Both the position numbers and the translations under genes were made by a program. A stretch of DNA of 37,708 nucleotides from Clostridia bacterium (lineage in GTDB: Bacteria > Bacillota > DSM-521 > Neomoorellales > JACIYF01): contig JACIYF010000015.1 of assembly GCA_014360065.1 (NCBI GenBank), positions 1 to 37,708 on the forward strand. The letters run 5' to 3'. The notes beneath the pieces were generated by a model. It saw nothing but the letters and a program-made list of their open reading frames with translations. It did no database searches and was not told the DNA's origin. Shown here in pieces: positions 1 through 20,249 of this stretch. Position 1 is the first letter of the stretch. Every line of letters starts with the position of its first letter.

Positions 1-233
1 CCCCACCTTGCCAGGCTCTCCAGCTTGCTCCTGGCTTTTCCCTGGGGCAGTTTGCTAATCCATTGAAAATAGTCTCCCTCTTCCATAACCATAACGGGCG
101 ACAAACAATCAACCACTCCTATATGGTGACCAATGGCCAAGGCATAATACTCCAGCTGCTTAACCTCAGGCGGGGCGTCTTTTTCGTCCACAAACCTCTT
201 GCACAGCTTAAAGAATTTTACCTTACCCGGCAT
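1..233 (-). CDS. hycH: HycH-type hydrogenase maturation/assembly protein (3'-truncated by window edge)
   Basis: The first 77 codons of a protein whose C-terminus lies beyond position 1. The visible part carries the signature of the formate hydrogenlyase maturation family HycH/HyfJ: a KxxxFxKLCKRFVDE-like start followed by YYALAIGHHIGVVDCL and a FQWI segment, at the same spacing as in E. coli HycH (about 136 residues). The family is needed for assembly or processing of the HycE-type large subunit, but its exact chemistry is unsettled. The ATG at 231-233 overlaps the end of the small-subunit gene by 11 bases, so translation is probably coupled. This is the most distal gene of the cooS-cooF-hyf operon seen here. 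A HycI-type protease gene, if present, would be further downstream and outside the window. Confidence 0.85.
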   Translation of the reverse strand, partial: MPGKVKFFKLCKRFVDEKDAPPEVKQLEYYALAIGHHIGVVDCLSPVMVMEEGDYFQWISKLPQGKARSKLESLARW

Positions 234-975: not shown

Positions 976-976
976 A

Positions 977-1531: not shown

Positions 1532-1570
1532 GCTGGGAATCCCCCTTCCTTTTGCTCGCTTACGGCCGAG

Positions 1571-3304: not shown

Positions 3305-3327
3305 GCTATGCCAACCTCCTGTTGTCT

Positions 3328-4767
3328 CTAGCTTAACAAGATCAAAGCAATGTACTGGGAAATCAGCGTCATAATCATAAGAATGGCGAGAACAAACTTG
3401 ATCGCCCAAGGAGGTTTAGCCGCAGTGGCAACTACATCCGAGGGTGTACCCAAGACGTTTGTGCCCATCCACTTCAGGAACCAGATGAAACTTCCAACAG
3501 ATTCAACAATTGCAACCATAATCAGGGCAAGGATCAGCGGATAGTGCTTACCAATCTCAAAACCGCCAATTATGATCATGAATTTGCTGAAAAAACCATT
3601 GAAGGGAGGAACGCCCGTAACGGCCATAACTGCGGCGATAAAACCTAAGCCTACCACTGGAAGTTTATTCAGAATCCCCTTGAGTATCGAGAGCTGGCGG
3701 GTACCGGTGGTATAGGATAGCGCACCTGCAACCAGGAAGAACAGCCCCTTAGCAAAAGCGTGGTTAAATATGTGGGACACCGCTCCGTTAAAGGCCATGC
3801 TTGAGCCGTAGATAGAAATGGAGATGGCCAGGAAAATATAAGAGAGTTGGGTGATCGTCGAGTAGGCGAGCAGTCGCTTCATATCATCCTGGGGGAAATA
3901 CATGAGAAAACCGTAAATCATGGTGACTACCGCCATGATGGCCCCGACCTGGCCGATCACTTGGGGAACCGCCTCGGTTGCCAGGATGGCTCGGGCAAAA
4001 ATGTAGACCCCAACCTTCACCATCGAAGCGGCATGCAAATAGGCACTCACCGGTGTCGGCGCCACCATGGCCCGGGGGAGCCAGGACTGGAAGGGAAACT
4101 GAGCGGACTTGCCCCAGCAGGCGATCAGGATTCCGATAAAGGCAATGGTTTTTCCAGCTTCCGTTAGTTTATTGAGGGCAGCCACAGAGAAGCTGCCAGC
4201 GTTTACATAAAGATAGGCAGTAGCCACATAGAGTCCCAACCCGGCGGCGTGAGTGAGTACGATGGCCATGAGTGCGGATCTTCGGGATTCTTGATCCCCG
4301 TAAAATCCGATTAAACCCCACGAGCAGAGACCGGTCATTTCAAAGAAGAACAGGAGCCCGAGGAGCGTGGAAGAGAAGACCACCCCTGCCATAGAGCCGA
4401 TAAAAAGCAGCATGAGCGCATAAAACCTGGGAATCCCTTCTTTAATGGGATGCTCCCTGTTGTCAGGACTCATGTACCCGGCCGAGTAGGTGCAGATCAG
4501 CCAGCCGATGAAAACTACCATGAAGTTGGCCAAGGCGCTGAGACTATCTATAGTTACACCATATAAGGTGATACCGCTTATAGTCACCAGTTCCCGGGTG
4601 AAGCTTACGCGGTTGACCGCAAAAGCGATCAGTAAAAGCAAACCGCTGACAAAAGCCAAGAGGGAGAAAAACTGACTCACCTTTTTCACGTGTCGCTCCG
4701 GCAAAAATAGCACAAGGGAACTTCCCAATACCGGCAGCAAGATGCTTCCTAGGGCATACCAAACCAT
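3328..4767 (-). CDS. hyfD: Hydrogenase-4 membrane subunit HyfD (antiporter-like)
   Basis: 479 residues, the same length as E. coli HyfD, hydrophobic throughout with many membrane segments. It belongs to the Mrp/NuoLMN antiporter-like family that forms the ion-translocating arm. Clear HyfD signatures include AGYMSPDNREHPIKEG, GKSAQFPFQSWLP, APTPVSAYLHAASMVKVG and GVPPFNGFFSKF. The Lys in GKSAQ and in SMVKVG correspond to the buried lysines used for proton movement in this family. The start codon abuts the stop of the preceding antiporter subunit (4767/4768). HyfD is absent from the smaller Hyc complex, so its presence shows an Hyf-like, larger proton- or sodium-pumping arm. Confidence 0.92.
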   Translation of the reverse strand: MVWYALGSILLPVLGSSLVLFLPERHVKKVSQFFSLLAFVSGLLLLIAFAVNRVSFTRELVTISGITLYGVTIDSLSALANFMVVFIGWLICTYSAGYMSPDNREHPIKEGIPRFYALMLLFIGSMAGVVFSSTLLGLLFFFEMTGLCSWGLIGFYGDQESRRSALMAIVLTHAAGLGLYVATAYLYVNAGSFSVAALNKLTEAGKTIAFIGILIACWGKSAQFPFQSWLPRAMVAPTPVSAYLHAASMVKVGVYIFARAILATEAVPQVIGQVGAIMAVVTMIYGFLMYFPQDDMKRLLAYSTITQLSYIFLAISISIYGSSMAFNGAVSHIFNHAFAKGLFFLVAGALSYTTGTRQLSILKGILNKLPVVGLGFIAAVMAVTGVPPFNGFFSKFMIIIGGFEIGKHYPLILALIMVAIVESVGSFIWFLKWMGTNVLGTPSDVVATAAKPPWAIKFVLAILMIMTLISQYIALILLS

Positions 4768-6258
4768 CTAAATCTCACCTCCCAGGACAACGCTGACTGC
4801 GCTCTGCAACAATTGATTCAACGGGGCAGGTAAATGTACCCCCAGCCCGGCCATGAGCACGAGCAGGATCCCAAGAGGCAACAAGGTCAGCCAACCGGCG
4901 TCACCCCGGGGCAGGTCCTCCGGAGGAAAACCGAGAGCCGCCTCGCCTATAAGGATAAAAAAGGCGACAAAGACGATGACCAGGAAGATAAGAAAGAGTA
5001 TCATCGGCCAGAAATGCCCAGCTTGCAGGCCAGCCATCAGGGTCATAAACTCGCTTGCGAAGATGTTGAAAGGCGGTGAACCGGCCACAGCCAGAAGCCC
5101 GGTCGTGAACAGAAATGCAGTAACGGGTGCCACCTTGAACATACCCCTAATCTTTTGGGAGTCCCTGCTACCATACTTGAGAGCCACATTTCCCACCGTA
5201 CAAAACAAAAGGGATTTAGTGATGCTATGGTTGATAGCGTGAAAGAGCGCTGCAAGCACTCCCAGCGTCCCTCCTGCGCCCAGGCCGGTGGCGATGATGC
5301 CTACATGCTCAACACTACTGTAAGCCAGCTTCCTCTTAACATCAGGCTGCACTAGTATGAAGAAGGCCGAGACTCCCACAGAAAGCAGGCCAAAGATGAG
5401 AAGCAGAGTCTGCGGGAACTCCTTGCCAACTGCCTGCAAAGCAATGGTATAATACCTTAGTATCGCAAATAACGCGCATTTCATCAGTACACCCGACAGC
5501 AAGGCGCTCACCGGGCTCGGAGATTCGCTGTAAGTATCAGGCAGCCATGTGTGCATAGGAACCAGGCCCACCTTGGCGCCGAAACCGATCAAAATGAAGA
5601 CAAAGGCCAGTTTCATCACTTGCGGGTCGAGACCCCGAGCCATCCCTACCAACTCGGTCCATAGCATCGCCCTGTGAGCATCCTGCACCATGGCAAAGGC
5701 ATTGGAGTAGGTCAGGATGGTCCCGTACAGGGCAAAAGCCAGGCCGACGCTACAGATCAGGACATACTTCCAGGCAGCTTCCGCCGATGTCTTGTATTTA
5801 TAGAACCCGACCAGGAAGGCCGAACCCAAGGTGGTTGCCTCCACCGCCACCCACATAAGGGCGATATTGTTGGATAGGGCAGAAAGAATCATGGTCAACA
5901 AGAGTATGTGGTAAAAACCGTAATAGGAGCAGACGCCCCTCTCATCTACCTCGCCATGCGCTAGGTTATATCGCATATATCCTATAGAGTAAAAGCCGTC
6001 CAGAAACCCCACTACCCCGATGATAAGAACTAGGACCGCCGTCAGGCTATCGGCGTAAAGCATTCCATTAAGGGCGAGCAGTGTTTGTCCGCTCAATACG
6101 TACTGCGCCAGCAGCAAGGAGAGAAGAGCCACGATACTGCTCCCAGCAAAGTGCACAACCTCCACCATACGCCGGGACCTTAGCCCAAAAGCCAACAGGG
6201 ATGTTCCCAGCGGTACCGCGGGCAGGTAGAATAAAATATTCTCCCCCACTTCTATCAC
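4768..6258 (-). CDS. hyfF: Hydrogenase-4 membrane subunit HyfF (antiporter-like)
   Basis: 496 residues, a polytopic membrane protein of the NuoL/M/N-MrpA/D family. It has GFGAKVGLVPMHTWLPD and SPSPVSALLSGVLMKCA, each with a conserved lysine, and GSPPFNIFASEF near the C-terminus. The set of three antiporter-like proteins (HyfB, HyfD, HyfF) is diagnostic for Hyf-type group 4a hydrogenases. Translation starts with GTG at 6258, directly after the TAG of hyfE, so ribosome re-initiation is likely. The order here is B-C-E-F-D, unlike B-C-D-E-F in E. coli, so HyfD has moved behind HyfF. The membrane location and ion pumping are family knowledge; the ion (proton or sodium) cannot be read from the sequence. 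Confidence 0.9.
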   Translation of the reverse strand: MIEVGENILFYLPAVPLGTSLLAFGLRSRRMVEVVHFAGSSIVALLSLLLAQYVLSGQTLLALNGMLYADSLTAVLVLIIGVVGFLDGFYSIGYMRYNLAHGEVDERGVCSYYGFYHILLLTMILSALSNNIALMWVAVEATTLGSAFLVGFYKYKTSAEAAWKYVLICSVGLAFALYGTILTYSNAFAMVQDAHRAMLWTELVGMARGLDPQVMKLAFVFILIGFGAKVGLVPMHTWLPDTYSESPSPVSALLSGVLMKCALFAILRYYTIALQAVGKEFPQTLLLIFGLLSVGVSAFFILVQPDVKRKLAYSSVEHVGIIATGLGAGGTLGVLAALFHAINHSITKSLLFCTVGNVALKYGSRDSQKIRGMFKVAPVTAFLFTTGLLAVAGSPPFNIFASEFMTLMAGLQAGHFWPMILFLIFLVIVFVAFFILIGEAALGFPPEDLPRGDAGWLTLLPLGILLVLMAGLGVHLPAPLNQLLQSAVSVVLGGEI

Positions 6259-6936
6259 CTAACCCTTTAGTAGTGTGAGCTTATCCGTGTCCAGGGTGCC
6301 GAAATCTTTGAAGAGGCGCCTGGCAATAATTGTCATGATCAGTACGGCAAAGATAGCGTCAGTCAGGATACCGATCTCTACGGTTTCGGGAGCATTGTAG
6401 GCCATGATGGCCAGGGTCAAATGCGACCCGTTTTCCATCAGGCAATAGCCCAATATCTGCTTAAGGGCATTTCTTCTAGCAAGAATGCAGAGCAACCCGA
6501 GGAGAAAATGAGCTATAGAAACCGCCAGCGCAACCTTCAACTTTAATACCGCATGCATATGAAAAGGCTCGACTACCACAAACGATAAAGCCACCAGGCC
6601 CACCGCCAGAAAAATAGACGAGCTTGTCTCCAGTGCCGGCCCCTCCTCTTGGATCCCTACCTTTTTGAGGGTTCTGAGGATGAGATAGGGTACCAGGAAG
6701 GTCTTGGTAATGAGGGCAGTAATGGACCAGATGTACAGCGGTTCTGCTTCCATAAATACGGCCAGGGACAGAAAAATCGCCACCAGGACCAAGGATTGGA
6801 TGCTGTACATGTACGCCGCCGTCTGGAGCTTTCGGGTTTCCACTACCAGCATCGAGGTCAGGATGAGCAGCACAGCCAGGGCGTTGACTACGCTAGTACC
6901 GGACACTATCTTATCCCCTCCCGCACCTTTAAACAT
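6259..6936 (-). CDS. hyfE: Hydrogenase-4 membrane subunit HyfE (NuoK-like)
   Basis: 225 residues (E. coli HyfE has 216), hydrophobic, with several membrane helices. The segment GYCLMENGSHLTLAIMAYNAPETVEIGILTDA is split here only to note its core GYCLMENG and VEIGILTDA, which fit the NuoK-like C-terminal half typical of HyfE. Acidic residues inside these membrane helices are part of the conserved polar path in the family. HyfE links the antiporter-like subunits to the HyfC membrane anchor and has no counterpart in the smaller Hyc complex. The ATG at 6936 overlaps the stop of hyfC by 8 bases. Confidence 0.88.
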   Translation of the reverse strand: MFKGAGGDKIVSGTSVVNALAVLLILTSMLVVETRKLQTAAYMYSIQSLVLVAIFLSLAVFMEAEPLYIWSITALITKTFLVPYLILRTLKKVGIQEEGPALETSSSIFLAVGLVALSFVVVEPFHMHAVLKLKVALAVSIAHFLLGLLCILARRNALKQILGYCLMENGSHLTLAIMAYNAPETVEIGILTDAIFAVLIMTIIARRLFKDFGTLDTDKLTLLKG

Positions 6937-7870
6937 TGGCCAGGTAGAAAACGAAGGACAGCAAGGCTATGCCGAAAGCCACCCAGGTTACTGTGGGGGC
7001 CTTAAAAAGGAGCAATCTGGCCATGCTGTTTTCCAGCAGCGCAGCGATCACGTAAAAACCGGTAACCTTCAACAAGAAGGTAGCCATGGAGACCAGAAGG
7101 GAGGAAGTGCTAACCACCGCCGCGCTCCCAAACGGGAAGAAAACGGCCAGAAACAGGGCGATAACCACAACCTGCTTCATGTACAAACTCCACTTCAGGA
7201 CAGCCAGGGAGCGCCCGGAATATTCTGTAAGGGGTCCCTCCTGAATTTCCTGTTCTGCTTCCGCCAGGTCAAAGGGGAGCTTGCCGGTCTCGATGAAGGT
7301 GGCAACAGCAAAGGAAGCCATGCCCAGCCAGACTGCCGGGCTATAATATGATATCTCACCGGCCGCCACCTTCTGGCTGATTATTCCCAGGTCGGTCGAC
7401 CCGGCGAGAAGGGCAACCAGGAACAGCACCAGGATAATAGTTGGCTCCACGAGAACGGCCAGGGCCATCTCCCGGCTGGCGCCTATCCCGCCGAACCCGC
7501 TACCGGAATCCAGACCTGCAAGGGCAAAGAAGAAGCGGACCACGGCAAGCAGGTAGACGACAGCGATGAGATCACCGGCTATCCCCAAGGGTGACTGCAG
7601 GGTTAAAATCGGAATCACCATGGCAATGAGCAGGGTGGTTGCCATCACTATAGAAGGGGTAAGCCGGAAGACCCAGCTGGCCTGGGCAGGTACCACTTCT
7701 TGCCTTTTTATGAGTTTAAATATATCCCGGTAGTTCTGAAAGATATCGGGACCTTTCCTAGAGTGGAGCTTCGCCCTCAAAGTGCGGGAAAGGCCCGTAA
7801 AAATAGGGGCTACTAGCAGGACAAACAAGGCCTGCACCAGACCGATGAGGAGCAACTGGTTACCGGGCAT
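6929..7870 (-). CDS. hyfC: Hydrogenase-4 membrane anchor HyfC/HycD (NuoH-like)
   Basis: 313 residues, matching HyfC (315 in E. coli). It is the NuoH-like protein that docks the catalytic large and small subunits onto the membrane. Visible family features are the early cytoplasmic loop HSRKGPDIFQNYRDIFKL, the acidic loop ETGKLPFDLAEAEQEI with its conserved Glu/Asp residues (coupling site in NuoH and HycD), and LTEYSGRSLAVLKWS. Eight or so hydrophobic stretches are evident. It begins 12 bases after the stop of hyfB and overlaps the start of hyfE, consistent with a polycistronic message. Confidence 0.92.
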   Translation of the reverse strand: MPGNQLLLIGLVQALFVLLVAPIFTGLSRTLRAKLHSRKGPDIFQNYRDIFKLIKRQEVVPAQASWVFRLTPSIVMATTLLIAMVIPILTLQSPLGIAGDLIAVVYLLAVVRFFFALAGLDSGSGFGGIGASREMALAVLVEPTIILVLFLVALLAGSTDLGIISQKVAAGEISYYSPAVWLGMASFAVATFIETGKLPFDLAEAEQEIQEGPLTEYSGRSLAVLKWSLYMKQVVVIALFLAVFFPFGSAAVVSTSSLLVSMATFLLKVTGFYVIAALLENSMARLLLFKAPTVTWVAFGIALLSFVFYLANV

Positions 7871-7882
7871 CTTTTTCTCCTC

Positions 7883-9904
7883 CTATCTGACCGTCGCTAT
7901 CAGTAGGACTACCAGCGTTACGATTATATATAGGCAATACAGCCGTACATTCCCTATCTGGAGGGCTTGCACCCGTTTGCCCAGATACACTGTACCCCGT
8001 ACCAGGGGCCTGTAGACGTAATGTTCCCACATCGCCTCCACGCGGGCGACGTAGACCACTGCTCCCTTGAAATATAACGCAATGATATAGCCTGGCCTCG
8101 CGAGGGTAGCCCTGAGCAAATAGGCCGGGCGGAAAAGCACGCGCAATGGTTGGGCAAAGGCAGAAGATGCGTACACCATCCGCGGCGAATACTTATATCC
8201 GCATGCCCACGGCTCAGAATCGATACGCCGCCCGGCCTGCATTCCAGCTTGCATGCCAACAATTAACAGGGGTAGCGTGACCAGCCCCACGAGGAGAAGG
8301 GCAATGAGCGGGGTGGAGAGCATGGCCCGGGCGCTACTTACCGGAAATACTAGCAGGCCGTCACTTACCCGGACCGGGGAGGTGCTTAGCAGCGCCGAGG
8401 CCACATTGCCAATATAAGGAGCAACAACCGGCGCACCCAGCCCGAGGGCAATGCAGCCAGCTGCCAGAATCGCCATCCCGGTAAGCATCGGCACCGGCAC
8501 TTCCCTGGCCTCCCGCGCGGGATCGCTGCGCAAAGGACCGGTAAAAGTGGCCCCGTAGGCTTTTACAAAACCCATCGCCGCCAAGGCGCCCGTTAGAGCC
8601 AGCAGGGTAGCAGAAAAAGGCGATAGCACCTTGATCGTGAGGATACTGCTGGTGCTCGCCATGAACAGCGATTGATAGATAAACCATTCACTAACAAAAC
8701 CGTTGAGGGGAGGAATAGCTGAGATGCCCAAGGCGCCGGTCAGAAAAGCCAACCCGGTCCACGGCATTCGCCTAGCCAATCCGCCCATCTCCTCCATGTT
8801 TTTCGTGTGGATGCGATAGATTACCGAACCAGCCCCGAGAAAAAGCAAGCCTTTGAAGACAGCATGGTTTATCAGGTGATAGAGCCCCGCCAGCATACCG
8901 AGCACTCCCAGAGCGGGCTGTCCACTGGCTGCGCCAATCATCCCAACACCGGCGCCCATCAGGATGATTCCCACGTTTTCGATACTGCAATAGGCTAGCA
9001 GCCGCTTGAGATCATTTTCACTTATAGCGTAAAGCACACCCAGAACCGCCGAGATGGCTCCGAAGGCCAGTACCATAAGACCCCACCACCAAACGGAAGC
9101 CCCAAGGAAATCGACACTAACCCTGATGAGGCCATAGATAGCGGTTTTAATCATCACACCCGACATGAGGGCGGAAACGTTGGAAGGAGCCACCGGGTGA
9201 GCCCGTGGCAGCCAGATATGGAGTGGCATAATGCCGGCCTTGACCCCGAACCCGAAGAAGGCCAGCAGGAAGATCAAATTCTTGGTCGCTGGTGAAAGGT
9301 TCGCGCTACGGAAGGAGGCAAAATCAAAGGTGCCTGTATAAAGAAAAAATAGGATAAACGAAAGCATAATCATTGCTGTCCCAGCATGGGCCATCAAGAA
9401 ATAGATAAATCCGGCATTGACAACCTCCTGGTTTTCCTGGTCAAAACTAACCAGGAAATAGGAAACCAGGGTCATCAGCTCCCAAAAAATGAGAAAATAG
9501 AAGGCATTGCCGCTGGTAACTACCAAAACCATGGACGCAATGAAAATGTTATTTAAAAAGCCCAGTACCCCAGCGCCCTTCCCGACATACTCCTCCTGAT
9601 AAGCAAGGGAGTAAATAGCTGTAGCGGCGGCCAGCAGCGAAATGACCAGCACCATAAAGGCAGAAAAGAGATCGACCTGGATAATAAAGCGCGCAAAGGG
9701 AATAAAGTCCGTCGCTTCCATCGTAAAGCCCGTTCCACGAGCGAAGACCTGAATGGCCGAAGCCATCCCGGCGCTTGCTGCCACAAAGGCGCTTATTCCT
9801 GAAGCATAGTTGGCAATTTTACCGGCTCTATTCAGCGCCAGGGAGGCAACTGCTCCGGCAGCATACAGGAGAATGGACAGCAGAAATAGCTGCTGAACGA
9901 GCAT
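7883..9904 (-). CDS. hyfB: Hydrogenase-4 membrane subunit HyfB/HycC (large antiporter-like)
   Basis: 673 residues, essentially the length of E. coli HyfB (672). It is the antiporter-like subunit with the long C-terminal extension. The core has GFGVKAGIMPLHIWLP and APSNVSALMSGVMIKTA with the two key lysines, NHAVFKGLLFLGAGS, and IPPLNGFVSEW. The C-terminal part carries WACGYKYSPRMVYASSAF followed by QPLRVLFRPAY, a motif found in HycC/HyfB but not in NuoL. The gap to cooF upstream is 176 bases, the only large gap in the operon. A GGAGG-type site lies just before the ATG. No separate promoter was recognised in the gap, so co-transcription with cooS-cooF is likely but not proven. Confidence 0.93.
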   Translation of the reverse strand: MLVQQLFLLSILLYAAGAVASLALNRAGKIANYASGISAFVAASAGMASAIQVFARGTGFTMEATDFIPFARFIIQVDLFSAFMVLVISLLAAATAIYSLAYQEEYVGKGAGVLGFLNNIFIASMVLVVTSGNAFYFLIFWELMTLVSYFLVSFDQENQEVVNAGFIYFLMAHAGTAMIMLSFILFFLYTGTFDFASFRSANLSPATKNLIFLLAFFGFGVKAGIMPLHIWLPRAHPVAPSNVSALMSGVMIKTAIYGLIRVSVDFLGASVWWWGLMVLAFGAISAVLGVLYAISENDLKRLLAYCSIENVGIILMGAGVGMIGAASGQPALGVLGMLAGLYHLINHAVFKGLLFLGAGSVIYRIHTKNMEEMGGLARRMPWTGLAFLTGALGISAIPPLNGFVSEWFIYQSLFMASTSSILTIKVLSPFSATLLALTGALAAMGFVKAYGATFTGPLRSDPAREAREVPVPMLTGMAILAAGCIALGLGAPVVAPYIGNVASALLSTSPVRVSDGLLVFPVSSARAMLSTPLIALLLVGLVTLPLLIVGMQAGMQAGRRIDSEPWACGYKYSPRMVYASSAFAQPLRVLFRPAYLLRATLARPGYIIALYFKGAVVYVARVEAMWEHYVYRPLVRGTVYLGKRVQALQIGNVRLYCLYIIVTLVVLLIATVR

Positions 9905-10041
9905 TTAGACTTACCTCCAGCTCCTCAAAATAGACACTACATTAGCAGCAGCACTTCTTTTGAGCTTGCTCAATTTTGAGCCACGAGGCGGGGGAGGGGC
10001 CTCCTTCACCCCGCCCCTGCCCTAAACCGCTATCTGGTAAT

Positions 10042-10148
10042 GAAGTGGCGGTTGCCAGGCGCCGCCCGGTTTCAAACCTTTACTGCGGTCCTGAATACCC
10101 TTTAACCCCGACGGAAGTGGCGGCTGCCAGGCGCCGCCCAGTTTCAAA
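10042..10148 (-). repeat. 72-bp-period duplication at the 3' end of cooF
   Basis: Two 35-base copies lie at 10042-10076 and 10114-10148 with only two mismatches. The upstream copy encodes the last part of CooF (FETGRRLAAATS). The other lies just past the cooF stop and, in the same frame, would read FETGRRLATATS. The period is 72 bases, a multiple of three. This looks like a tandem duplication of the cooF tail in which a stop codon now separates the two copies. Confidence 0.75.
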
Positions 10149-10589
10149 TTCCTCCACGGTCTGGAAGACCAGGGCCCCGGTGGGGCAGGCCCGGACGCAA
10201 GCCGGTACACCCTCCTCATCCACGCACTCCTGGTCGCACTTTATAGCCTTGCCCTCGCCCCGCCCCACCGCACCAAAGGGGCAGGCCATGGCACACATCC
10301 AGCAACCGATGCACTGGGTCAAGTTAACCACATTAACGCCATCTTCCCGGCTGTGCATCGCACCCGTCATACAGACAGCCACACAAGGGGCATCTTCACA
10401 TTGCCGGCAGACGGCCGGGGCTTTCACCTGACCTACCTGGTCCACGTAAATGCGCTTCTGCGGCTTTTCGCCCCCCAGGAGAGCCCCAAACAAGTCTCGG
10501 GCTGCGGTGTGGCTTATGGCGCAGGCCAGCTCACAGGAATGGCAGCCCATACACCGGTCATAACGGACGAAGATCTCCTTCCGTATCAT
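10080..10589 (-). CDS. cooF: CooF-type polyferredoxin, electron carrier between CODH and hydrogenase
   Basis: 169 residues with sixteen cysteines arranged for four [4Fe-4S] clusters: C13/16/19/23 with a partner group at C118/122/131/135, C61/64/69/73 and C93/96/99/103. This is the HycB/HyfA/CooF family of four-cluster ferredoxins. Here it occupies the place that HyfA or HycB takes in formate hydrogenlyase operons, next to the CO dehydrogenase instead of a formate dehydrogenase. The role inferred is to accept electrons from CooS cluster B/D and hand them to HyfH. The ATG overlaps the cooS stop by four bases (ATGA), a strong sign of coupled translation. The C-terminal 20 residues are duplicated just downstream of the stop. 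Confidence 0.93.
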   Translation of the reverse strand: MIRKEIFVRYDRCMGCHSCELACAISHTAARDLFGALLGGEKPQKRIYVDQVGQVKAPAVCRQCEDAPCVAVCMTGAMHSREDGVNVVNLTQCIGCWMCAMACPFGAVGRGEGKAIKCDQECVDEEGVPACVRACPTGALVFQTVEEFETGRRLAAATSVGVKGYSGPQ

Positions 10590-12514
10590 CGCCGCCCACC
10601 TCCCGGAACGCTGAGCCCCAGAGCAGCCCGGCGCTCATCGATGGCCGCCAGGAGCTTTTGGGCCGCGGAGTCGGGATCGAGGTCCACGATGAAGTAACCA
10701 CCCGTCAACTCCCGGACTTTGTCCGTCAGCACCTTGGTGACCAGGGGGCCCCCCAGGACCGGCAGCATGACCCCCACGTGGGTGGGCAGGCCCAGAGCCA
10801 CGGCATAGGTCCCGATGGAGACCGCCTTCTCCGAAACCGCTTCGGGCGCCGAGGCCACCACCGGGAGCTGATCCGTATCTACGCCCAGCCGGTCGGCTAC
10901 CGCCACGGCCACGGCCACCGCCCGCGAGTTGTCTACGCAGGAGCCCACGTGCAGCACCGCCGGCAGAGGCCCACCCAGGCCGTTGGCCTCGCCGATGGCT
11001 GTCAGGACCGCCTTCAAGCCCTCTCCGCACAGCTCGCCCACGTTGGCCGGATCCAGGAACCCGTGGCGCATGAGCGCACCCGCCCCGCAGCCGGTAGCCA
11101 GGACCAGCACGTTTTCTTTCAGGAGCCTGCGAGCAACTGCGGTAAAGTTCTGGTCCTGCGGGACCTTGACGTTGTTGCACCCGGCGAAGAGGCAGACACC
11201 CCGAATATTGCCGGAGGCGATCTGGTCGAGCAGGGGCTTCAAAGGATCCTCGGCGTTTAGCTTGGAGAGGGCTGCTACGATGGCCTCCACGGAGAAACCT
11301 GCGACCACCTTGGTCTTATATGGCGGTATGTCCACCGGCTTACCCCGGCGACGGGAGAAGGATTCGATGGCCAGGCGGATGATCTGTCTGGCGTTCTCCC
11401 CGGCTGTCTCCTCTGAAAACTCGATGTGGATGGCCCCGGGGATCTTGGTGATCTCCATGGTAGTGATCAGCTTAGTGCCCATGCATTCCGCCACCGTAGC
11501 CAGGGAGGGCATGATGCACTGGTAATCTATCACCACAGCATCCAGCGCACCGGTTACCAGGGCCATCTCCTGGCTCACCGAGTGGGTGCAGGCCGGAATG
11601 CCATGCCGCATCATCACCTCGTTGCCGGTGCAGCAGATGCCCACCACATTGATGCCGGAGGCGCCGGCCGCCTTGGCCTCGCCCTCCATCTCCTTGGCCA
11701 CTGCCACGATCACCTCAGAAAGGACCGGGTTGTGGCCGTGGACTGCCACGTTGACGGCGTCGGCCTTCAGCACACCCATATTGGCCTCGGTCACCACTGG
11801 CTGGGGAGTGCCGAAGAGGATATCGGCCAGGTCAGTGCCCATATAGCAGCCGGCCAGGTCCGCCACGCCGCAGCGCAACCCGCCCAGAAGCAGGTTCACG
11901 GGGTCCGCGTCCACGCCGTAGAGGGTGCGGTGCATGATATCGGATACCTCGTAGTCTATGCCCTTGGGGAGCAAACCTTTTTCCGCAAAGAGTTTGGCCC
12001 GCTTCTTAGTCACTGTGGTGGCTGCCCACATGACCGGCGTCTCTTTCTCGTGAAAGTCCGCCAGGGCCGCCTCCGCCAGGTCCAAGGCGATCTCGGCGAT
12101 ACTCTTCCCCTCGGTGGGGATGCCGAGGCGCCCAGCCACAGAGCGCAGCTTAGCTTTGTCCTTAATAGTATAGTCACGTGCCTTGCCCTTTGCCGCCAGC
12201 TTCAGGGTGTGGGCCAGGTGTCTGGCATGGCCGGAGTGGGCCGCCGACCCGGCCGCGATGGCCCGGTCGAGGCCCCGGGCTACCATCACATCCGCGGTGG
12301 CCCCGCAGATGCCGGTCTTGGGCTCGCCGCCGAAGGGATCAATGCGGCAGGGGCCCTGCAGGCAGTGCCGGCAGCAAAGCCCGGTTTCACCAAAGCCGCA
12401 CTGGGGAAGCATGGCCTGGTAGCGGTCCCAGACCGTCTCCACCTCCAGGCGCCTGGCCTTTTCCGCCATTTCGCAAACCGCCGGGTCCAGAGAAACGTTA
12501 CATGACTTGGCCAT
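10586..12514 (-). CDS. cooS: Ni-dependent carbon monoxide dehydrogenase catalytic subunit (CooS)
   Basis: 642 residues from the ATG at 12514, which has AGGAGG nine bases upstream. CooS interconverts CO + H2O and CO2 + 2 H+ + 2 electrons in the cytoplasm. With this start the key residues fall at the very numbers known from Carboxydothermus CODH-II: D-cluster C39 and C47; B-cluster C48, C51, C56 and C70; C-cluster ligands H261, C295, C333, C446, C476 and C526; and catalytic K563. No key residue is missing, so the enzyme should be competent if nickel is inserted. It is a monofunctional CODH, not the acetyl-CoA synthase-associated AcsA by context, since cooF and a hydrogenase follow. It is directly preceded by a decayed cooC. 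Confidence 0.97.
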   Translation of the reverse strand: MAKSCNVSLDPAVCEMAEKARRLEVETVWDRYQAMLPQCGFGETGLCCRHCLQGPCRIDPFGGEPKTGICGATADVMVARGLDRAIAAGSAAHSGHARHLAHTLKLAAKGKARDYTIKDKAKLRSVAGRLGIPTEGKSIAEIALDLAEAALADFHEKETPVMWAATTVTKKRAKLFAEKGLLPKGIDYEVSDIMHRTLYGVDADPVNLLLGGLRCGVADLAGCYMGTDLADILFGTPQPVVTEANMGVLKADAVNVAVHGHNPVLSEVIVAVAKEMEGEAKAAGASGINVVGICCTGNEVMMRHGIPACTHSVSQEMALVTGALDAVVIDYQCIMPSLATVAECMGTKLITTMEITKIPGAIHIEFSEETAGENARQIIRLAIESFSRRRGKPVDIPPYKTKVVAGFSVEAIVAALSKLNAEDPLKPLLDQIASGNIRGVCLFAGCNNVKVPQDQNFTAVARRLLKENVLVLATGCGAGALMRHGFLDPANVGELCGEGLKAVLTAIGEANGLGGPLPAVLHVGSCVDNSRAVAVAVAVADRLGVDTDQLPVVASAPEAVSEKAVSIGTYAVALGLPTHVGVMLPVLGGPLVTKVLTDKVRELTGGYFIVDLDPDSAAQKLLAAIDERRAALGLSVPGGGRR

Positions 12515-12519
12515 CAGCA

Positions 12520-12807
12520 TCAACCTCCTTGAAGAATATGCTTGAAGAATATGCGGCAACGCCGCAGGCTTTTAAACTTTGGCTCCGGCTGCCCAATCAC
12601 AGCTAGGCCTCCTGTCTGGTCTTCCAGTAGCCAGCGAAGGCTAGGTACCGGCCTTTCCTCGGAGAGCCCCAGGACCATTCCCGGGCTACTGTCAGCATCG
12701 GCATCAACGGCATATACCTGGTAACCTTGCTAGGCAAAATGCTTGATTAAACCGGCAGCGATGGTGGTTTTGCCGACGCCACCTTTCCCGGAAATGGCCA
12801 GCTTCAC
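12520..12807 (-). pseudogene. cooC: Decayed cooC (CODH nickel-insertion ATPase) remnant
   Basis: From the GTG at 12807 the frame reads a start typical of CooC, including the Walker A P-loop SGKGGVGKTT at residues 6-15. It is then interrupted by an in-frame TAG at 12730-12732 (codon 26). After the stop the same frame goes on with GYQVYAVDADADSSPGMVLG, which matches the CooC region that normally follows, up to a WLLEDQTGG segment. The similarity then fades and the frame ends in TGA at 12520-12522, inside the cooS ribosome-binding region. CooC is normally about 250 residues; only about 65 are recognisable here, so both a nonsense mutation and loss of the C-terminal two thirds are seen. An AAGGTG site precedes the GTG, so a 25-residue peptide could still be made. 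Confidence 0.8.
12528..12553. repeat. Tandem duplication of a 13-base unit before cooS
   Basis: The 13-base unit cttgaagaatatg (plus strand) occurs twice in a row at 12528-12540 and 12541-12553. It lies between the recognisable cooC remnant and the cooS Shine-Dalgarno site, and half of the Shine-Dalgarno neighbourhood is part of the unit. It may mark the scar of the deletion that removed most of cooC. Confidence 0.85.
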
Positions 12808-12912
12808 ATGAACACCTTCTCTGTTCAGCTAAAAGGTTAAAAGGTGTAAAATTAGGTTATAAATCAAGTTTTCAATAAACATGTAATAGCGAAACAGCTC
12901 TTTTTGGCTTAC

Positions 12913-12928
12913 AGCAAAAAGCGTGCCA
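12913..12928 (-). promoter_or_regulatory. Sigma-54 (-24/-12) promoter of the cooS-cooF-hyf operon
   Basis: On the minus strand the sequence TGGCACGCTTTTTGCT matches the sigma-54 consensus TGGCACG-N4-TTGCW at every fixed position, with GG and GC elements at the correct ten-base offset. Transcription would start near 12902, about 95 bases before the cooC remnant start and about 390 before cooS. The gene just upstream encodes a sigma-54 activator on the same strand, so a local control circuit is likely. Confidence 0.88.
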
Positions 12929-12960
12929 AAAGAAAAAGGCCGCCAGGGCTAGGCGGCTTA
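12925..12960 (-). terminator. Rho-independent terminator after the sigma-54 activator gene
   Basis: On the minus strand a GCCGCC / GGCGGC stem (12952-12957 with 12939-12944, seven-base loop) is followed by CTTTTTCTTTT. It would end the transcript of the activator gene that stops at 13007. Its T-run directly abuts and partly overlaps the -24 element of the sigma-54 promoter. Confidence 0.75.
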
Positions 12961-12970
12961 ACTATTTCAA

Positions 12971-13006
12971 TGTCAGTGTGGGTTTACACGTTAAGAAGAG
13001 TTGACA
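12971..13006. promoter_or_regulatory. Possible activator-binding site (nested inverted repeats)
   Basis: Between the activator stop codon and the sigma-54 promoter there are two inverted repeats: GTGT-N6-ACAC at 12976-12989, and an outer TGTCA (12971-12975) with TGACA (13002-13006). They lie 45-80 bases upstream of the -24 element, where an enhancer for the activator could be. The repeats are short, so this is only a candidate. Confidence 0.35.
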
Positions 13007-14833
13007 TTATTTTTTAAGCAGGCCATAGCTGACCATTTTAGCATAAAGGGCCTGGCGGGAGAGGCCTAGTGCTTTGGCGGTCCGTGTTTTTTCTCCTCCA
13101 AAAGCTTCCAAAGCCTGGATGATGGCTTCCTTTTCGGCTTCTATCCGTACCTTATAAAGTGGAGAAATCTCCCTCACTTTATTTTTTCCTGTACAACCTA
13201 TGGCGAGGTGATGGGGATGGATTTCCTGGTCCTCAGCCAAGATGGCCGCCCTCTCCAGGACATTTTCTAACTCTCGGACGTTGCCCGGCCAAGAATAGCC
13301 TAAAAGGCACTCCATAGCAGCCGGAGTAAGCCATAACTTTTTGCCATATTCTTTGCTTAGCCTTTGTAAAATGCTCTCTGCCAGGAGAGGTATGTCTTCC
13401 AGCCGCTCTTTAAGGGGTGGGAGCACCAGCTTAACCACATTTAAGCGGTAAAAAAGATCTTCCCGGAAACGCCCTTCCCGCACCATTTTTTCTAAGTCCT
13501 TATTGGTAGCTGCTATCACTCGCACATCTATTTTTCTAGTGCGGATGCTCCCCAGCCGTTCAATCTCTTTATCTTGCAATACCCTTAAAAGCTTGGCTTG
13601 CATATTAAGAGGCATATCCCCGATTTCATCTAAAAAAATGGTTCCTCCATCAGCCAGTTCAAACTTGCCAGGTTTGCCGCCCTTTTTAGCGCCAGTAAAG
13701 GCGCCTTCCTCGTAACCGAATAGTTCGGATTCTAGAAGTTCTGGGGGGATGGCTGCTAAGTCTACTTTTATTAAAGGCGCGTTACGGCGGGGGCTTTCTT
13801 CATGGATAGCCTGGGCCAAGACCCCTTTTCCGGTGCCGCTCTCGCCCTGGATGAGTATAGTGGCATTGCTCCAGGCCGCTTTTTGGGCCAGGCTTAAAAC
13901 GTTCCTAAAATAGCGATTTAAGGTCCGGATGTGGCGGAAATTGAAGAGGAACCCAGCAGGCTTTAAGTTCTCAGGGTTATGGCTAACTCTGGCTTCTTGT
14001 CTTTTAAGCTGTTCCAGGAGAAGGCGTACAAGCTCGCTTTCGTCGGAGAAAAACTGGCACAGCACACCCTCTATTTTAGCCGGGGTCCAAAAAGGCGTTC
14101 CTATGACGATGATAGTGTTCCCATTGGTTTTCTGGAATTCCCATACCTGGGGTTTGCCGGACTGGATTATTTCAGAGTATTTGGCTAAAGGGAATATCTC
14201 TTCTAGCAGGCGGCCTCGCGCCCTTTGACCTGTAATACCCAGTATTTGAGTACCGGCTTTATTTATCCCTACCACTCTCCCCTGGTTATCGACAATTACC
14301 AGGCCCAGGGGAATTGCGTGGAAGATGGCTTCCCAGATGCTTAAAGGGAGCTCTTCTGCCTCTGTTGCGGACCCAAGGGTAGCCTGGCGGTAGCTTCTGG
14401 TTGCTTGCACAGCCTGGAAGGTGAGATCTATGAGCAATCTGTTGGTTTCTTCGGGGAGGAAGAAGGAATAGGGCTCATCAAGACCAGAAACAGGGGATAT
14501 GGTGGCTTCCATCTGGCAATAATGTTCCCCTGTCCCCCAGCATTTGGTTTCTTCTACCTCTATTCTTTTTCTAAGGAGTTTGTTGAGGGCCCCAGCTAGC
14601 AGGCCCCCTTCCAAATAGCATAACGGCTGGCCCACAGGCGGGAAGTGAGAACAGGTGAAACATTCGTACCATTTGACGGTGATTTTGTCGCCTTTTACAC
14701 TTTGCAATTTAAGGTTTCCTACTCCCAGTGCGCTTATTTTATCCGGTATTTCTTCCAGGTCATCTACAGGAAGCTGCCTGCCAATAGAATAGCCTGCCTG
14801 GTAAACTGTCTTCTCCGGGGCACTGGTTAGCAT
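13007..14833 (-). CDS. Sigma-54-dependent transcriptional activator with V4R and PAS sensor domains
   Basis: About 608 residues from the ATG at 14833, which has a GGGGGAG site seven bases upstream; an ATG at 14857 would add eight residues. The N-terminal ~110 residues are a V4R-like domain with clustered cysteines (ECFTC, PLCYLEGG, TKCWGTGEHYC), a fold known for small-molecule sensing in XylR/DmpR relatives. A PAS domain (about residues 170-270) follows, then an AAA+ domain with Walker A GESGTGKG, the sigma-54 contact motif GAFTGA, Walker B GGTIFLDEIGD, and a Fis-type HTH at the extreme C-terminus (TRTAKALGLSRQALYAKM). There is no phosphoreceiver domain, so control is by ligand or redox state rather than a kinase. 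Its position next to a perfect sigma-54 promoter makes it the likely activator of the CODH-hydrogenase operon; the signal (CO, metal, redox) is unknown. Confidence 0.9.
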   Translation of the reverse strand: MLTSAPEKTVYQAGYSIGRQLPVDDLEEIPDKISALGVGNLKLQSVKGDKITVKWYECFTCSHFPPVGQPLCYLEGGLLAGALNKLLRKRIEVEETKCWGTGEHYCQMEATISPVSGLDEPYSFFLPEETNRLLIDLTFQAVQATRSYRQATLGSATEAEELPLSIWEAIFHAIPLGLVIVDNQGRVVGINKAGTQILGITGQRARGRLLEEIFPLAKYSEIIQSGKPQVWEFQKTNGNTIIVIGTPFWTPAKIEGVLCQFFSDESELVRLLLEQLKRQEARVSHNPENLKPAGFLFNFRHIRTLNRYFRNVLSLAQKAAWSNATILIQGESGTGKGVLAQAIHEESPRRNAPLIKVDLAAIPPELLESELFGYEEGAFTGAKKGGKPGKFELADGGTIFLDEIGDMPLNMQAKLLRVLQDKEIERLGSIRTRKIDVRVIAATNKDLEKMVREGRFREDLFYRLNVVKLVLPPLKERLEDIPLLAESILQRLSKEYGKKLWLTPAAMECLLGYSWPGNVRELENVLERAAILAEDQEIHPHHLAIGCTGKNKVREISPLYKVRIEAEKEAIIQALEAFGGEKTRTAKALGLSRQALYAKMVSYGLLKK

Positions 14834-14857
14834 ACCTTGTCTCCCCCCAGCGTTCAT

Positions 14858-15510
14858 TTGATGCTTCCACCCGATTCCATTCTAGGCTATAAGATATAAA
14901 AAGTAAAGAATGGTTCTGTCCGGAAACTCCCTGCCACTGGCCCGGAGGTATTTGCACACCGGCTTTTCTCCCCAAAAGTAGTCGAGTTCGGACGTACTTC
15001 CCACCCCTCACGCTGGATTCTAGGTAGTAGCGGCAGTTCGTGCAGTTGGCTCTGGCTGCCATAGGCACTACCTCCCCAGTCGTAGTAGTCGTATGGGCAG
15101 CAGCTTCGCTGTGATACAATTTTGATGCCGGCGGGCCCTGACAGGGTAGGTGGCCACGCCAGGGAAGGAGGATACGATAATGAAACTTGATCGCATCGCG
15201 GTGGACCCGAAATCTGCCTAGGCCACCCTTGATGAATCCGGAAAGGAAAGACGCGGCCTCCTCCTCGGGTCGCAGGCATGTGCTTCTCGCAGGTCCCGGC
15301 CTCGATCTGGGGACCGTACCGCCTGTGCTCCGCCCAGCGGCCCGAGACCGAAACCTCGCCGGCCCTCCATGACGCCGACGAAGCAGCGGGTGACCGTGAC
15401 CGGCTCTGCGCTTTTTCCTTCGGGAATGATGGAAAGGACACTCCAGCTGTCGGAGGGTGAGTTGATGCTCCCAAAAGCCCTTTTCAGCGAACACCTTACG
15501 TAAAAAGCAA
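14858..15510. other. Gene-poor region with no confident gene
   Basis: Open frames here are mutually overlapping and have atypical composition, so none is called. On the plus strand a good site (GGAAGGAGG) precedes an ATG near 15180 that reads MKLDRIAVDPKSA and then hits TAG. This start resembles the opening of DUF433-type antitoxin-like proteins, so it may be a dead remnant. Further on, a 44-codon frame from about 15369 ends at TAA just before the terminator hairpin (MTPTKQRVTVTGSALF at its start). It overlaps a preceding short frame by ATGA. I do not recognise it. Confidence 0.4.
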
Positions 15511-16820: not shown

Positions 16821-17873
16821 CTATTTCCCCGCCCCAGCCTCGCGAGGGTAAGCCGTAGGGCAGGTGTCTCCCAGTACTATCGTTTCCCGAAGTTCGCGCC
16901 GCTGGCCGCTGGATACCTTTAAGTTCTCCCATTTCCCACAGCGGCTGCCCCAGCGGCTGGCCAGTTCGCCGCCCACGTAAAGCTCATTGATCTCGCAGTC
17001 GTTAGCGCAATCGCCGCAAATGAAGCTCCGGGGAGTAAATTCCAGGTCGGCCATGGCATCCAGGCCCCGAAACCGCGTAGGTTGGTGGGTCTTCATCCAC
17101 CGGGACCGGGCTAGCAAAGCCGCCCCCAGCGCCCCCATGACATCATAATGCTCAGGCACAATGATTTCCAGACCTAAGAGCTTTTCAAAGGCGGCACGGA
17201 TGCCAACGTTGGCCGCTACCCCGCCTTGAAACAATACCTTGGGCTTGATCTCTTTGCCCCTAGCCACGTTGGTAAGGTAGTTGCGCGCCAAGGCCAGGCA
17301 CAAACCGGCAATCAAGTCTTCCTTGCGATAACCCATCTGCTGCTTATGGATGAGGTCGGACTCGGCAAACACTCCGCACCGACCGGCGATGCGCACCGGG
17401 TGCTTCGACTTAAGGGCTAGCTCCCCAAACTGCTCGATGGGGATATTGAGGCGCTGGGCCTGGTGATCGAGGAAGGAACCGGTGCCGGCCGCGCAGACTG
17501 TATTCATGTTGAAGCCCCGCGAAACCCCGTCCTTGATAAAAATGATCTTGGAATCCTGGCCCCCAATATCGATCACAGTGCGCACCTGGGGCTCCACCTC
17601 ACGAGCAGCCACTGCGTGGGCGGTAATTTCGTTTTTGACCGTGTCCGCCCCCACCATTACCGCTGCCAAATGCCGCCCGGAGCCGGTAGTGCCCACCGCC
17701 GCTACATCCAATTGACCAACCTGCTCCCGCAGCTGCCGGAACCCATTCTGGATGGCCTCCATAGGCCCGCCATAAGTCCGCAAGTAAGCGTGAAAGAGCA
17801 TTTCCTTTTTTTCATTGATGGCCACAACTTTGCTGGTGACGCTTCCTACATCAATACCCAAAAAGCAAGGCAC
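16821..17873 (-). CDS. BadF/BadG/BcrA/HgdC-type ATPase (2-hydroxyacyl-CoA dehydratase activase)
   Basis: 350 residues of the ASKHA ATPase fold: phosphate-1 motif FLGIDVGSVTSK, phosphate-2/metal motif VIDIGGQDSK, and adenosine motif QGGVAANVG. The two cysteines that hold the single [4Fe-4S] cluster between the monomers of HgdC are here at exactly the same positions, C127 (NTVCAAGTGSF) and C166 (GRCGVFAESD). Such proteins use ATP to push electrons at very low potential into a dehydratase or CoA reductase. A C-terminal Cys set (CGDCANDC at 286-293, and C312) may carry a further metal. The GTG/ATG start region overlaps the 3' end of the fused activase-related gene by 23 bases. The actual client enzyme is not in the window. 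Confidence 0.9.
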   Translation of the reverse strand: MPCFLGIDVGSVTSKVVAINEKKEMLFHAYLRTYGGPMEAIQNGFRQLREQVGQLDVAAVGTTGSGRHLAAVMVGADTVKNEITAHAVAAREVEPQVRTVIDIGGQDSKIIFIKDGVSRGFNMNTVCAAGTGSFLDHQAQRLNIPIEQFGELALKSKHPVRIAGRCGVFAESDLIHKQQMGYRKEDLIAGLCLALARNYLTNVARGKEIKPKVLFQGGVAANVGIRAAFEKLLGLEIIVPEHYDVMGALGAALLARSRWMKTHQPTRFRGLDAMADLEFTPRSFICGDCANDCEINELYVGGELASRWGSRCGKWENLKVSSGQRRELRETIVLGDTCPTAYPREAGAGK

Positions 17874-20133
17874 CTTTTTCTCCTCCTCGACTGGCGTAGC
17901 GCCGCTCCTCCAAAACCTCCAAGAAGGCTTCGATGCGAGTGATAAAGCCAGCCTCCCCGGTCTGCTCGCTGATAACCAGCGACAAAACCGGCAAATCGAT
18001 TTCTTCCGATAGCTTAACCAAAACGTTTTGGGCTACAATCTCCGGCATACAGGTGAAGGGCAATAGGTGAATCACCCCATCCACCCCGTCCCGCTTGGCC
18101 AGTACCGTGAGGCCTATGCTCTCTTGGCCGTGCCCCCCAACTGAGGTATTAAGGTAAGGGGCCGCCGCCCGGATCACTTCCTCGTGGCGCCGCTTTAAGC
18201 TCCTCCGCCCCAGAATATGCTGGTCAAACCAGGAAGTAGCGCTGAGCTCCCGTTCCACCAGCACCCGGGGCGATTCCCTAGATGCCAACAGGCGCTCGAT
18301 GTTTTGGTTGACAAAGGGTTCTAGCAGACAATAAATTTCTCCTACCAGGCGCACTCGCAATGGATTGGTATCCTCTCGCTCCAACGACCCCAGCTCTTCA
18401 GCCAATTCCTGCCGGAGGCGCTTAACCTCCCTGACGCTAGCTGCCTTATCCATCTTGGCCAAAAAGCGCTTAAAGGCGCGATCGGCGCTGCCAATTTTTC
18501 GCTCGTAAGCCCGCGCTTCCCGGACCCAAGCTTCCCCAGCATCCAAGGCCTCCATCTTGTGGTAACCCAAGTACAAGCCCGCTAAGATCTTTTTCAACGG
18601 CGCTCCCCGGGTTACCCAACGAATGGTCTCCTTGAAAGGCTTCCAATTAGTTTTCAGGGGAACTGGTGAATCGATAATGGCCAGATCAAACTGGTAGCCT
18701 AGCCGCTGCAGCAATATCTGCTGCACCTGGGCGTACCACCCCAACCGACAGCGGCCCTTGCCCCCCACCATCAGAATTAGATTGGCACCTTTTTCCAGGG
18801 CCTCCCGCATCTGCCCTACGGTAGTAACCAAGGGGTAACACATAAACTCCGGCGCTATCTCTTTGCCCAGCTCTACCGAGCGTTGGGTCATGGGGGGCGT
18901 GCGCACCGCTCTTACCCCGCACTCCTGAAAAACGGCTCTTAGGGCAATATCCAAGTAGCCCATAGAGGGGGTGCCGATCACTATATCTTGGTCGGCAGGG
19001 CGAGGCCCCGGTATAGGTGTAGAGGTCGATGAGCCGAGCTGATCTAAATGATGAATGGCAGGGCGATTGCCGACATCCGACCTGGGGTCGGGTTCAACTA
19101 CTGCAGCGCCAGCCCGACCCTCAACTTCCGGCGCTGCCGCCCTAGCTTGGCCGGCAGTAGTGTCCACAAAAGCTTCCAGGCGGGTTACCACCCCCGCTTC
19201 CCCCGTATGCTCATCTAGGGTTAGCAACAAAAACGGAATCCCTTGGCGCTCCGCCTCCCGCTCGATAAAGGCTTCCAGCACCGACTCGGGGCCACACTCA
19301 AAAGCTCCCACCAGGATAAGCTTATCTACCAGGTGACGGCGCAAAAGATAGTAAGAAGCTCCGAGAATGCGAGCCTCATAGGTCCACATCTTGTGCCCCT
19401 CAAAGACCGTGGCCAGTTCCTGGTGCACCGCCTCCAGGGGCACCATCTCAAAGGTTATTACCTGTCCGTACTCTCGGAGCCGCTCCACCGTGTTCTGTCC
19501 CACCAGATCATAAAGCAAATAGGGGTGCCCCATGACGCCAATTCTCTGGTTGGGGTCAAATTCCGCCGCCCGGTCAAAGCGCCGGGGCTGGGCCTGGGGG
19601 CGCCCATCTAAACGGCGAAAGGCCTCCACGGTAGTAATTTTGGCCTGGCGGGTGAGAGCCTCAAACTGCTTCTGGAGCTCAAGCCCCCTCTCCAAGGCCT
19701 TCCAGGCCTGACGTTTGGCGGCTCCCAGGCGTTGGGCACAAGCCACAAACGATTGTCGCCACATACCAGGCTTTTCCTTTTCGTTTATTTCCGGGGCCAA
19801 GATCATGTTTTCAGGCAGGTCCAATCCTTCCTTAATCATAGCCGGGCAACCAATCAGCTTGGGGCAGCAATAATTGTCAGGCTCAAGGCTGGATAGCACA
19901 GGCAGAAAGAGGAAATCCACACCCTTCTCCAGCACCGCTTTGGCATGGGCAAACAGAAGCTTCACTGATACGCAAGGCTCATCGGTGGGGCAATAGCGCA
20001 TATCATCCAAAGTCCGAGGGCCGGAAGGCGGCGAGAGTACCACCTCTACCCCCAGGCTCTCCAGGAAACCTTTCATGAAGGGATAAACGTAATAATAGGC
20101 CAACGCCCTAGGGATACCAACCCGGTAGCCCAT
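17851..20133 (-). CDS. Acyl-CoA dehydratase activase-related protein, fused two-module form (DUF2229/HgdB-like)
   Basis: 760 residues from the ATG at 20133 (GGAG ten bases upstream); a GTG at 20142 is too close to that site. The N-terminal module (about 1-330) is DUF2229-like: YYYVYPFMKGFLESLG, CPTDEPCVSVK, DNYCCPKLIGCP, and ends with TGEAGVVTRLEAF. An Ala/Pro/Asp-rich linker (about 330-390) follows. The second module ends with the same element, TGEAGFITRIEAF, so the protein carries two related halves. In many anaerobes these halves are separate neighbouring genes next to a BadF-type activase. Cysteines in both halves suggest [4Fe-4S] binding as in dehydratase subunits. The substrate is unknown. 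It is the promoter-proximal gene of the activase operon. Confidence 0.85.
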   Translation of the reverse strand: MGYRVGIPRALAYYYVYPFMKGFLESLGVEVVLSPPSGPRTLDDMRYCPTDEPCVSVKLLFAHAKAVLEKGVDFLFLPVLSSLEPDNYCCPKLIGCPAMIKEGLDLPENMILAPEINEKEKPGMWRQSFVACAQRLGAAKRQAWKALERGLELQKQFEALTRQAKITTVEAFRRLDGRPQAQPRRFDRAAEFDPNQRIGVMGHPYLLYDLVGQNTVERLREYGQVITFEMVPLEAVHQELATVFEGHKMWTYEARILGASYYLLRRHLVDKLILVGAFECGPESVLEAFIEREAERQGIPFLLLTLDEHTGEAGVVTRLEAFVDTTAGQARAAAPEVEGRAGAAVVEPDPRSDVGNRPAIHHLDQLGSSTSTPIPGPRPADQDIVIGTPSMGYLDIALRAVFQECGVRAVRTPPMTQRSVELGKEIAPEFMCYPLVTTVGQMREALEKGANLILMVGGKGRCRLGWYAQVQQILLQRLGYQFDLAIIDSPVPLKTNWKPFKETIRWVTRGAPLKKILAGLYLGYHKMEALDAGEAWVREARAYERKIGSADRAFKRFLAKMDKAASVREVKRLRQELAEELGSLEREDTNPLRVRLVGEIYCLLEPFVNQNIERLLASRESPRVLVERELSATSWFDQHILGRRSLKRRHEEVIRAAAPYLNTSVGGHGQESIGLTVLAKRDGVDGVIHLLPFTCMPEIVAQNVLVKLSEEIDLPVLSLVISEQTGEAGFITRIEAFLEVLEERRYASRGGEKGALLFGY

Positions 20134-20249
20134 ATCAATCACGCTCCGTCAGAACGGGAGAGTACACCTAGACCAGGAACCTCTATAAATATTATCACCC
20201 ATAATTGTAACCTTTTTGCTGGTTAAGGCATATAATGGATGCCATTTCA

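Follow-up and report, generated by a model that had tools for sequence, protein, structure and literature searches.

The window, a stretch of 37,708 nucleotides covering contig JACIYF010000015.1 of a Clostridia bacterium (assembly GCA_014360065.1), harbours a cooC pseudogene at positions 12807-12520 of the minus strand, directly 5' of an intact cooS, as a preliminary description of this DNA had proposed. The locus is a sigma-54-controlled CODH/energy-converting-hydrogenase (ECH) operon of the water-gas-shift type, whose first gene, cooC, is now a pseudogene. Indeed, cooS and cooF are followed by a Hyf-type [NiFe]-hydrogenase set, as in other CODH/ECH operons (cooCSF-phc or ech1), and only the intact cooC as first gene is missing, an exception shared with Moorella (Neomoorella) caeni. 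The features of the locus are:

223-9904, minus strand: hyfBCEFDGHI-type group 4 [NiFe]-hydrogenase genes, the ECH partner (HyfG retains two CxxC motifs)
10080-10589, minus strand: CooF/HydN-like 4Fe-4S protein
10586-12514, minus strand: intact cooS, a monofunctional Ni-CODH of CODH-II type (TIGR01702, 737 bits; gapless to 1su6; ligands; dN/dS)
12524-12530, minus strand: ribosome-binding site of cooS, AAGGAGG
12542-12554, minus strand: 13-bp tandem duplication, GCATATTCTTCAA, just 5' of the cooS ribosome-binding site and in none of the relatives compared
12552-12566, minus strand: short hairpin TGCGGC-GTT-GCCGCA (TGCGGCGTTGCCGCA), directly 5' of the cooS ribosome-binding site
12568-12654, minus strand: in-frame 3'-end remnant of a FAD/NAD(P) oxidoreductase (FNOR) gene, apparently fused to the cooC remnant by deletion (tblastn, DNA score)
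12652-12807, minus strand: cooC 5' remnant, codons 1-52 (GTG start, deviant Walker A motif GKGGVGKTT, homology to CooC)
12730-12732, minus strand: in-frame TAG at codon 26 (CGG, CAG or CAA in intact orthologues)
12913-12928, minus strand: sigma-54-type -24/-12 promoter, TGGCACG-CTTT-TTGCT (exact consensus match)
12939-12957, minus strand: terminator-like hairpin 3' of the regulator gene
13007-14857, minus strand: sigma-54-dependent activator, upstream of the operon

The promoter is the sole exact sigma-54 site in the window and is conserved in relatives, the cooC-less one included. CooS aligns without gaps over 634 residues with CODH-II of Carboxydothermus hydrogenoformans (1su6), and the preliminary claim that it keeps every catalytic residue holds for the B-, C- and D-clusters as well as for the acid-base residues: in CODH-II numbering, C39, 47, 48, 51, 56 and 70, H261, C295, 333, 446, 476 and 526, and H93, 96, 99, 102 and K563 are all present. 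By the Nei-Gojobori method, pairwise dN/dS of cooS ranges from 0.14 to 0.17 in comparisons with Moorella-type relatives and falls to 0.08 with L015, and it is low in the regulator and hyf genes too; on these ratios (about 0.08-0.17) cooS evolves under purifying selection. Since cooS has its own ribosome-binding site, it is independent of cooC translation. The leader hairpin is kept in close relatives, including the cooC-less G014, where one base differs, and a search of the leader for a nickel riboswitch or other RNA gave no Rfam match above the gathering score. In-frame TAGs were also considered in three CooS paralogues; the one inspected (L082) has no internal stop before its C-terminal end, and its TAG is most likely its own terminator. 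A further peculiarity is that cooS and most of cooF (10114-12580) form a mosaic segment, with dS to L015 of 0.46 in cooS against about 2 in the flanking genes, while in comparison with G009, G011 and G014 the same segment falls to 81% identity between flanks of 87-89%. This looks like replacement of the cooS allele by recombination, and the right breakpoint of the segment adjoins the cooC/FNOR junction.

Similarity to Moorellaceae coo-hyf loci extends from position 1 to 14,910 of the window, mostly at 86-89% DNA identity, and then ends sharply, whereas this genome's GroEL and RtcB proteins share only about 82-83% and 64-75% identity, respectively, with those of Moorellaceae-type genomes. The coo-hyf block therefore looks horizontally acquired, with 14910 as its likely edge, in line with the reported transfer of CODH-ECH clusters (PMC6687684). 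This edge lies about 640 bp from a tRNA-Arg/tRNA-Arg/tRNA-Ser cluster. A second Moorellaceae-like segment occurs on contig C10 (about 37-47 kb; L121/L145), where a partial groEL is followed by a module of FNOR and a CooF-like gene, itself preceded by a nearly identical version of the coo sigma-54 promoter; its order and orientation are those found beside hyf in G017, so that C10 may join the contig of the window (C15). Outside the coo locus, at 16821-20142, a BadF/BcrA-type ATPase and a DUF2229/HGD-D gene form a pair of the CoA-dehydratase activase type that adjoins a GntR regulator.

Lesions of cooC and the FNOR junction

The minus-strand frame that opens with GTG at 12807 reads VKLAISGKGGVGKTTIAAGLIKHFA, TAG (12732-12730), QGYQVYAVDADADSSPGMVLGLSEER, and continues to a TGA at 12522-12520 (codon 96). 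The match to Carboxydothermus CooC1 (3kje; E 4e-13) is confined to residues 1-53, and the remnant is 58-64% identical to the intact cooC genes that occupy exactly the same position in close relatives and encode proteins of 248-271 aa. The P-loop (deviant Walker A) is kept, as had been noted before, and the stop at codon 26 falls within the cooC-derived part of the frame. Instead of a full-length frame of about 250 aa, however, cooC sequence ends at codon 52, and ~195 codons are missing, among them those of the CxC metal site (C112/C114 in CooC1); with this site deleted, the locus is a CooC (COG3640) pseudogene and not a CooC. The stop and the loss of most of the C-terminal part are two distinct lesions, as the preliminary description had recognised.

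By contrast, its statement that CooC-like sequence continues beyond the TAG stands only as far as codon 52, and the C-terminal stretch is an FNOR remnant rather than degraded CooC. Compared with the remaining part of cooC, the stretch 12651-12560 scores 10, at shuffle level (mean 9.2; 677 of 2000 shuffles as high), whereas against the 3' end of the FNOR gene it scores 21, which none of 2000 shuffles reached. The FNOR match is in frame (tblastn: RPVPSLRWLLEDQTGGLAVIGQPEPKFKS versus RPAWSLRHQLLEGQVGGLVLNGRPVERLRA), and the FNOR-derived stretch is 79% identical over 86 nt to the cooC-cooS spacer of G008. An intact FNOR homologue with Pyr_redox_2 and Rubredoxin_C domains is present in the same genome (C10, ~40.2 kb). 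In relatives the cooC-cooS spacer contains 5' and 3' scraps of the same FNOR, and cooS-cooF-FNOR without cooC is a standing module in most Desulfobacterota-type relatives; the simplest history would therefore start from the order regulator-cooC-FNOR-cooS-cooF-hyf. FNOR would have decayed in the lineage, and in the window a deletion that took ~195 codons of cooC together with most of the adjoining FNOR remnant would have joined the FNOR 3' end to codon 52. Among the Moorella-type loci compared (L083-L088), the FNOR between cooC and cooS shows differing degrees of decay. Two candidates were dropped: a one-base frameshift at about 12650, suggested by comparison with M. stamsii, because the downstream frame is that of FNOR, and a conserved Cys-rich small ORF in the spacer of relatives, which is the wrong frame of the FNOR 5' remnant.

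The nearest intact cooC, that of G008, has CGG at codon 26 and five synonymous differences over the 52 codons. Changes found only in the window are R26stop, which requires two bases, P38A, T40S, L42P, P49S and a few silent ones, and P38, T40, L42 and P49 are invariant in the intact copies compared. Such non-synonymous changes at invariant residues, all located after the stop, are expected of a pseudogene and indicate that the decay is not brand new, contrary to the earlier impression of a recent stop one base away from a sense codon. All ten window-only base changes of the remnant (12652-12807) fall in codons 26-52 and none in codons 1-25 (post hoc P ~0.001), a skew that could reflect residual selection on a leader of 25 codons or else gene conversion.

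Distribution of cooC and other nickel-insertion genes

Our survey took in 40 loci from GTDB genomes, each with flanks of at most 6 kb, which were shorter in some ten cases. A cooC lies beside this type of cooS in L015, L016, L018, L019, L022 and L023, and in two distant matches (L045, L049). Of the 37 CODH-II-type cooS rows in the tree, 25 lack a neighbouring cooC; Carboxydothermus islandicus, Desulfofundulus and Desulfobacterota are among those with no cooC inside the survey flanks. The rows with cooC group together in the CooS tree, in a single clade that also holds the window and L017. In this hydrogenase-linked Firmicute clade cooC is kept in 10 of 12 rows, with dN/dS of 0.04-0.17 indicating strong purifying selection, and is missing only in the window and in M. 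caeni DSM 21394 (L017; G014). The latter retains a scrap of ~40 bp from the middle of the gene (score 25; 0 of 2000 shuffles). Because this differs from the scrap in the window, the breakpoints differ as well, and the two losses are, judged by their sequences, independent. The absence of cooC at this place in M. caeni had been noted in the literature (PMC11328732), and the window is a second case in the clade. One surveyed locus, L016 (NZ_ATXI01000032.1), is filed as Thermodesulfobacterium thermophilum, and its CooC is identical to that of Thermoanaerobacter sp. Bu09, with the same arrangement; a contaminated assembly or a recent transfer is possible.

The preliminary description had proposed a search of the genome (3.04 Mb, 99% complete, 242 contigs, 3.28% contamination) for other cooC copies, and two related genes were found in the acs cluster. 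The first, C5:34283, encodes a full-length CooC with P-loop, DADPD and CYC motifs (3kje match, E 5e-59) that is 59% identical to the lost hydrogenase-linked type. The second, C5:25010, encodes an ATPase that we call AcsF-type because of where it lies and because it groups with the second acs-linked ATPase of Moorella, rather than by comparison with a characterised reference. CooT and two HypB are also encoded, whereas no second hydrogenase-type cooC was found in this 99%-complete genome. Given a bin of 242 contigs with 3.28% contamination, C5 and C15 are likely, but no more than likely, to derive from one cell. At least one other CooC-type gene is present in every genome examined that has this locus. 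In the CooC tree the hydrogenase-linked and acs-linked genes of Moorellaceae interleave, with weak support, which suggests that cooC may have been exchanged between the two positions and fits redundancy.

Loss of cooC and maturation of CooS

Taken together, we consider it probable that cooC was lost because it was redundant, and that the CODH-II-type CooS is matured in trans, or is intrinsically independent of CooC, or both. The nonsense mutation at codon 26 and the large deletion disabled cooC and left cooS untouched, a loss that could be tolerated because CooS of this type would need no dedicated neighbouring maturase. Nickel would be inserted in trans by the acs-cluster CooC (C5:34283), possibly aided by CooT and HypB, and/or be bound by CooS without CooC. 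We infer both that CooS is active in this organism and which maturase acts on it; cross-maturation by C5:34283 is short of proven, as this protein is just 59% identical to the lost type. The preliminary description had argued that nickel must come from another CooC, from high nickel or not at all; it is right in that either another CooC acts or none is needed, and the existence of C5:34283 and the frequent lack of a local cooC beside CODH-II-type genes refine this view. M. caeni DSM 21394, without cooC upstream of cooS, is reported to use the water-gas shift for growth on CO, with production of H2 (PMC11328732). With cooS under selection, a cooC-less relative growing on CO and spare helper genes in the genome, the case would be one of ordinary, repeatedly seen gene loss, for which the arrival of a new operon in a host that already has a CooC would provide a natural setting. 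Similarly, Eubacterium limosum lost cooC2 by a frameshift while evolving on CO with added Ni (PMC7079680).

A narrower reading, which we hold to be possible but doubtful, is that in the native host no CooC takes part in supplying CooS with nickel, the acs CooC serving the acs CODH alone. The CODH-II and CODH-IV operons lack cooC, and at high nickel E. coli produces both enzymes in active form without CooC, while C. acetobutylicum has a CODH and no cooC; the CODHs of R. rubrum and D. vulgaris, on the other hand, depend on CooC (PMC6006190). The predominance of cooC-less loci in our survey agrees with nickel binding without CooC, but with another CooC-type gene in each genome examined, trans action is always possible, and the retention of cooC under strong purifying selection in most of the hydrogenase-linked clade suggests that the gene usually pays. 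Somewhat less credible still is the general form of this idea, namely that no CooC-type ATPase acts on the native hydrogenase-linked CODH and that repeated cooC loss marks CODHs that bind nickel unaided.

Alternatively, cooC could be the first casualty of a coo-hyf locus that is decaying as a whole, with CooS on its way out. In relatives, the FNOR that occupied this position has decayed already, and just one genome of the species was compared; yet no frame is truncated or interrupted in cooS, cooF, the regulator or any hyf gene, dN/dS is low throughout, the sigma-54 promoter is exact and M. caeni grows on CO without cooC (PMC11328732), so we regard general decay as improbable. In a draft of 242 contigs, a fault of sequencing or assembly is conceivable, as is a second, intact copy that was collapsed or missed. 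Two separate lesions make such an error very unlikely, however, as a nonsense codon two bases from G008, a large deletion whose junction derives from FNOR, a duplication of 13 bp and four substitutions at invariant residues coexist, and a missed copy is at odds with the lack of any other hydrogenase-type cooC in the 99%-complete genome. Least plausible of all is readthrough or recoding of the TAG to give a functional short CooC. Although no further stop interrupts the frame between the TAG and the TGA at codon 96, the fused product would be missing most of the ATPase fold as well as the CxC site, its C-terminal part would derive from FNOR, and invariant P38, T40, L42 and P49 are lost after the stop. 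Pyrrolysine recoding was rejected because a search of the genome for PylS gave nothing above cut-off; with no pyrrolysyl-tRNA synthetase found, the TAG is a stop.

Comparison with known systems

What makes some CODHs, but not others, dependent on CooC has been described as an unsolved problem of the field (PMC6006190). The window locus and M. caeni represent two independent natural losses of cooC in otherwise conserved operons. Moreover, CooS of M. stamsii (with cooC) and of M. caeni (without it) differ at only 4 of 639 residues, which makes them a ready-made natural pair for comparing maturation in trans with CooC-free maturation.

The closest solved CooS is CODH-II of C. hydrogenoformans, which shares all cluster ligands and the gapless alignment, and whose operon likewise lacks cooC. 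To our knowledge, that operon has no linked Hyf/Phc-type hydrogenase, unlike the window. The cooCSF-phc operon of Parageobacillus thermoglucosidasius shows the same arrangement of cooC-cooS-cooF and a group 4a hydrogenase (PMC6036681), but its cooC is intact and, unlike the present genome, that of P. thermoglucosidasius has no second CODH (PMC7734403). The cooC-cooS-ech1 locus of M. stamsii DSM 26217 (L018/L086) is fully syntenic with the window, at 87-89% DNA identity outside cooS, and differs in its intact cooC. Finally, the cooS-ech1 locus of M. caeni DSM 21394 (L017/L087) shares with the window the regulator, the sigma-54 promoter, cooS, cooF, the hyf order and the loss of cooC, but it retains a mid-gene scrap and no 5' remnant, and carries a divergent cooS allele whose product is 81% identical to CooS of the window.
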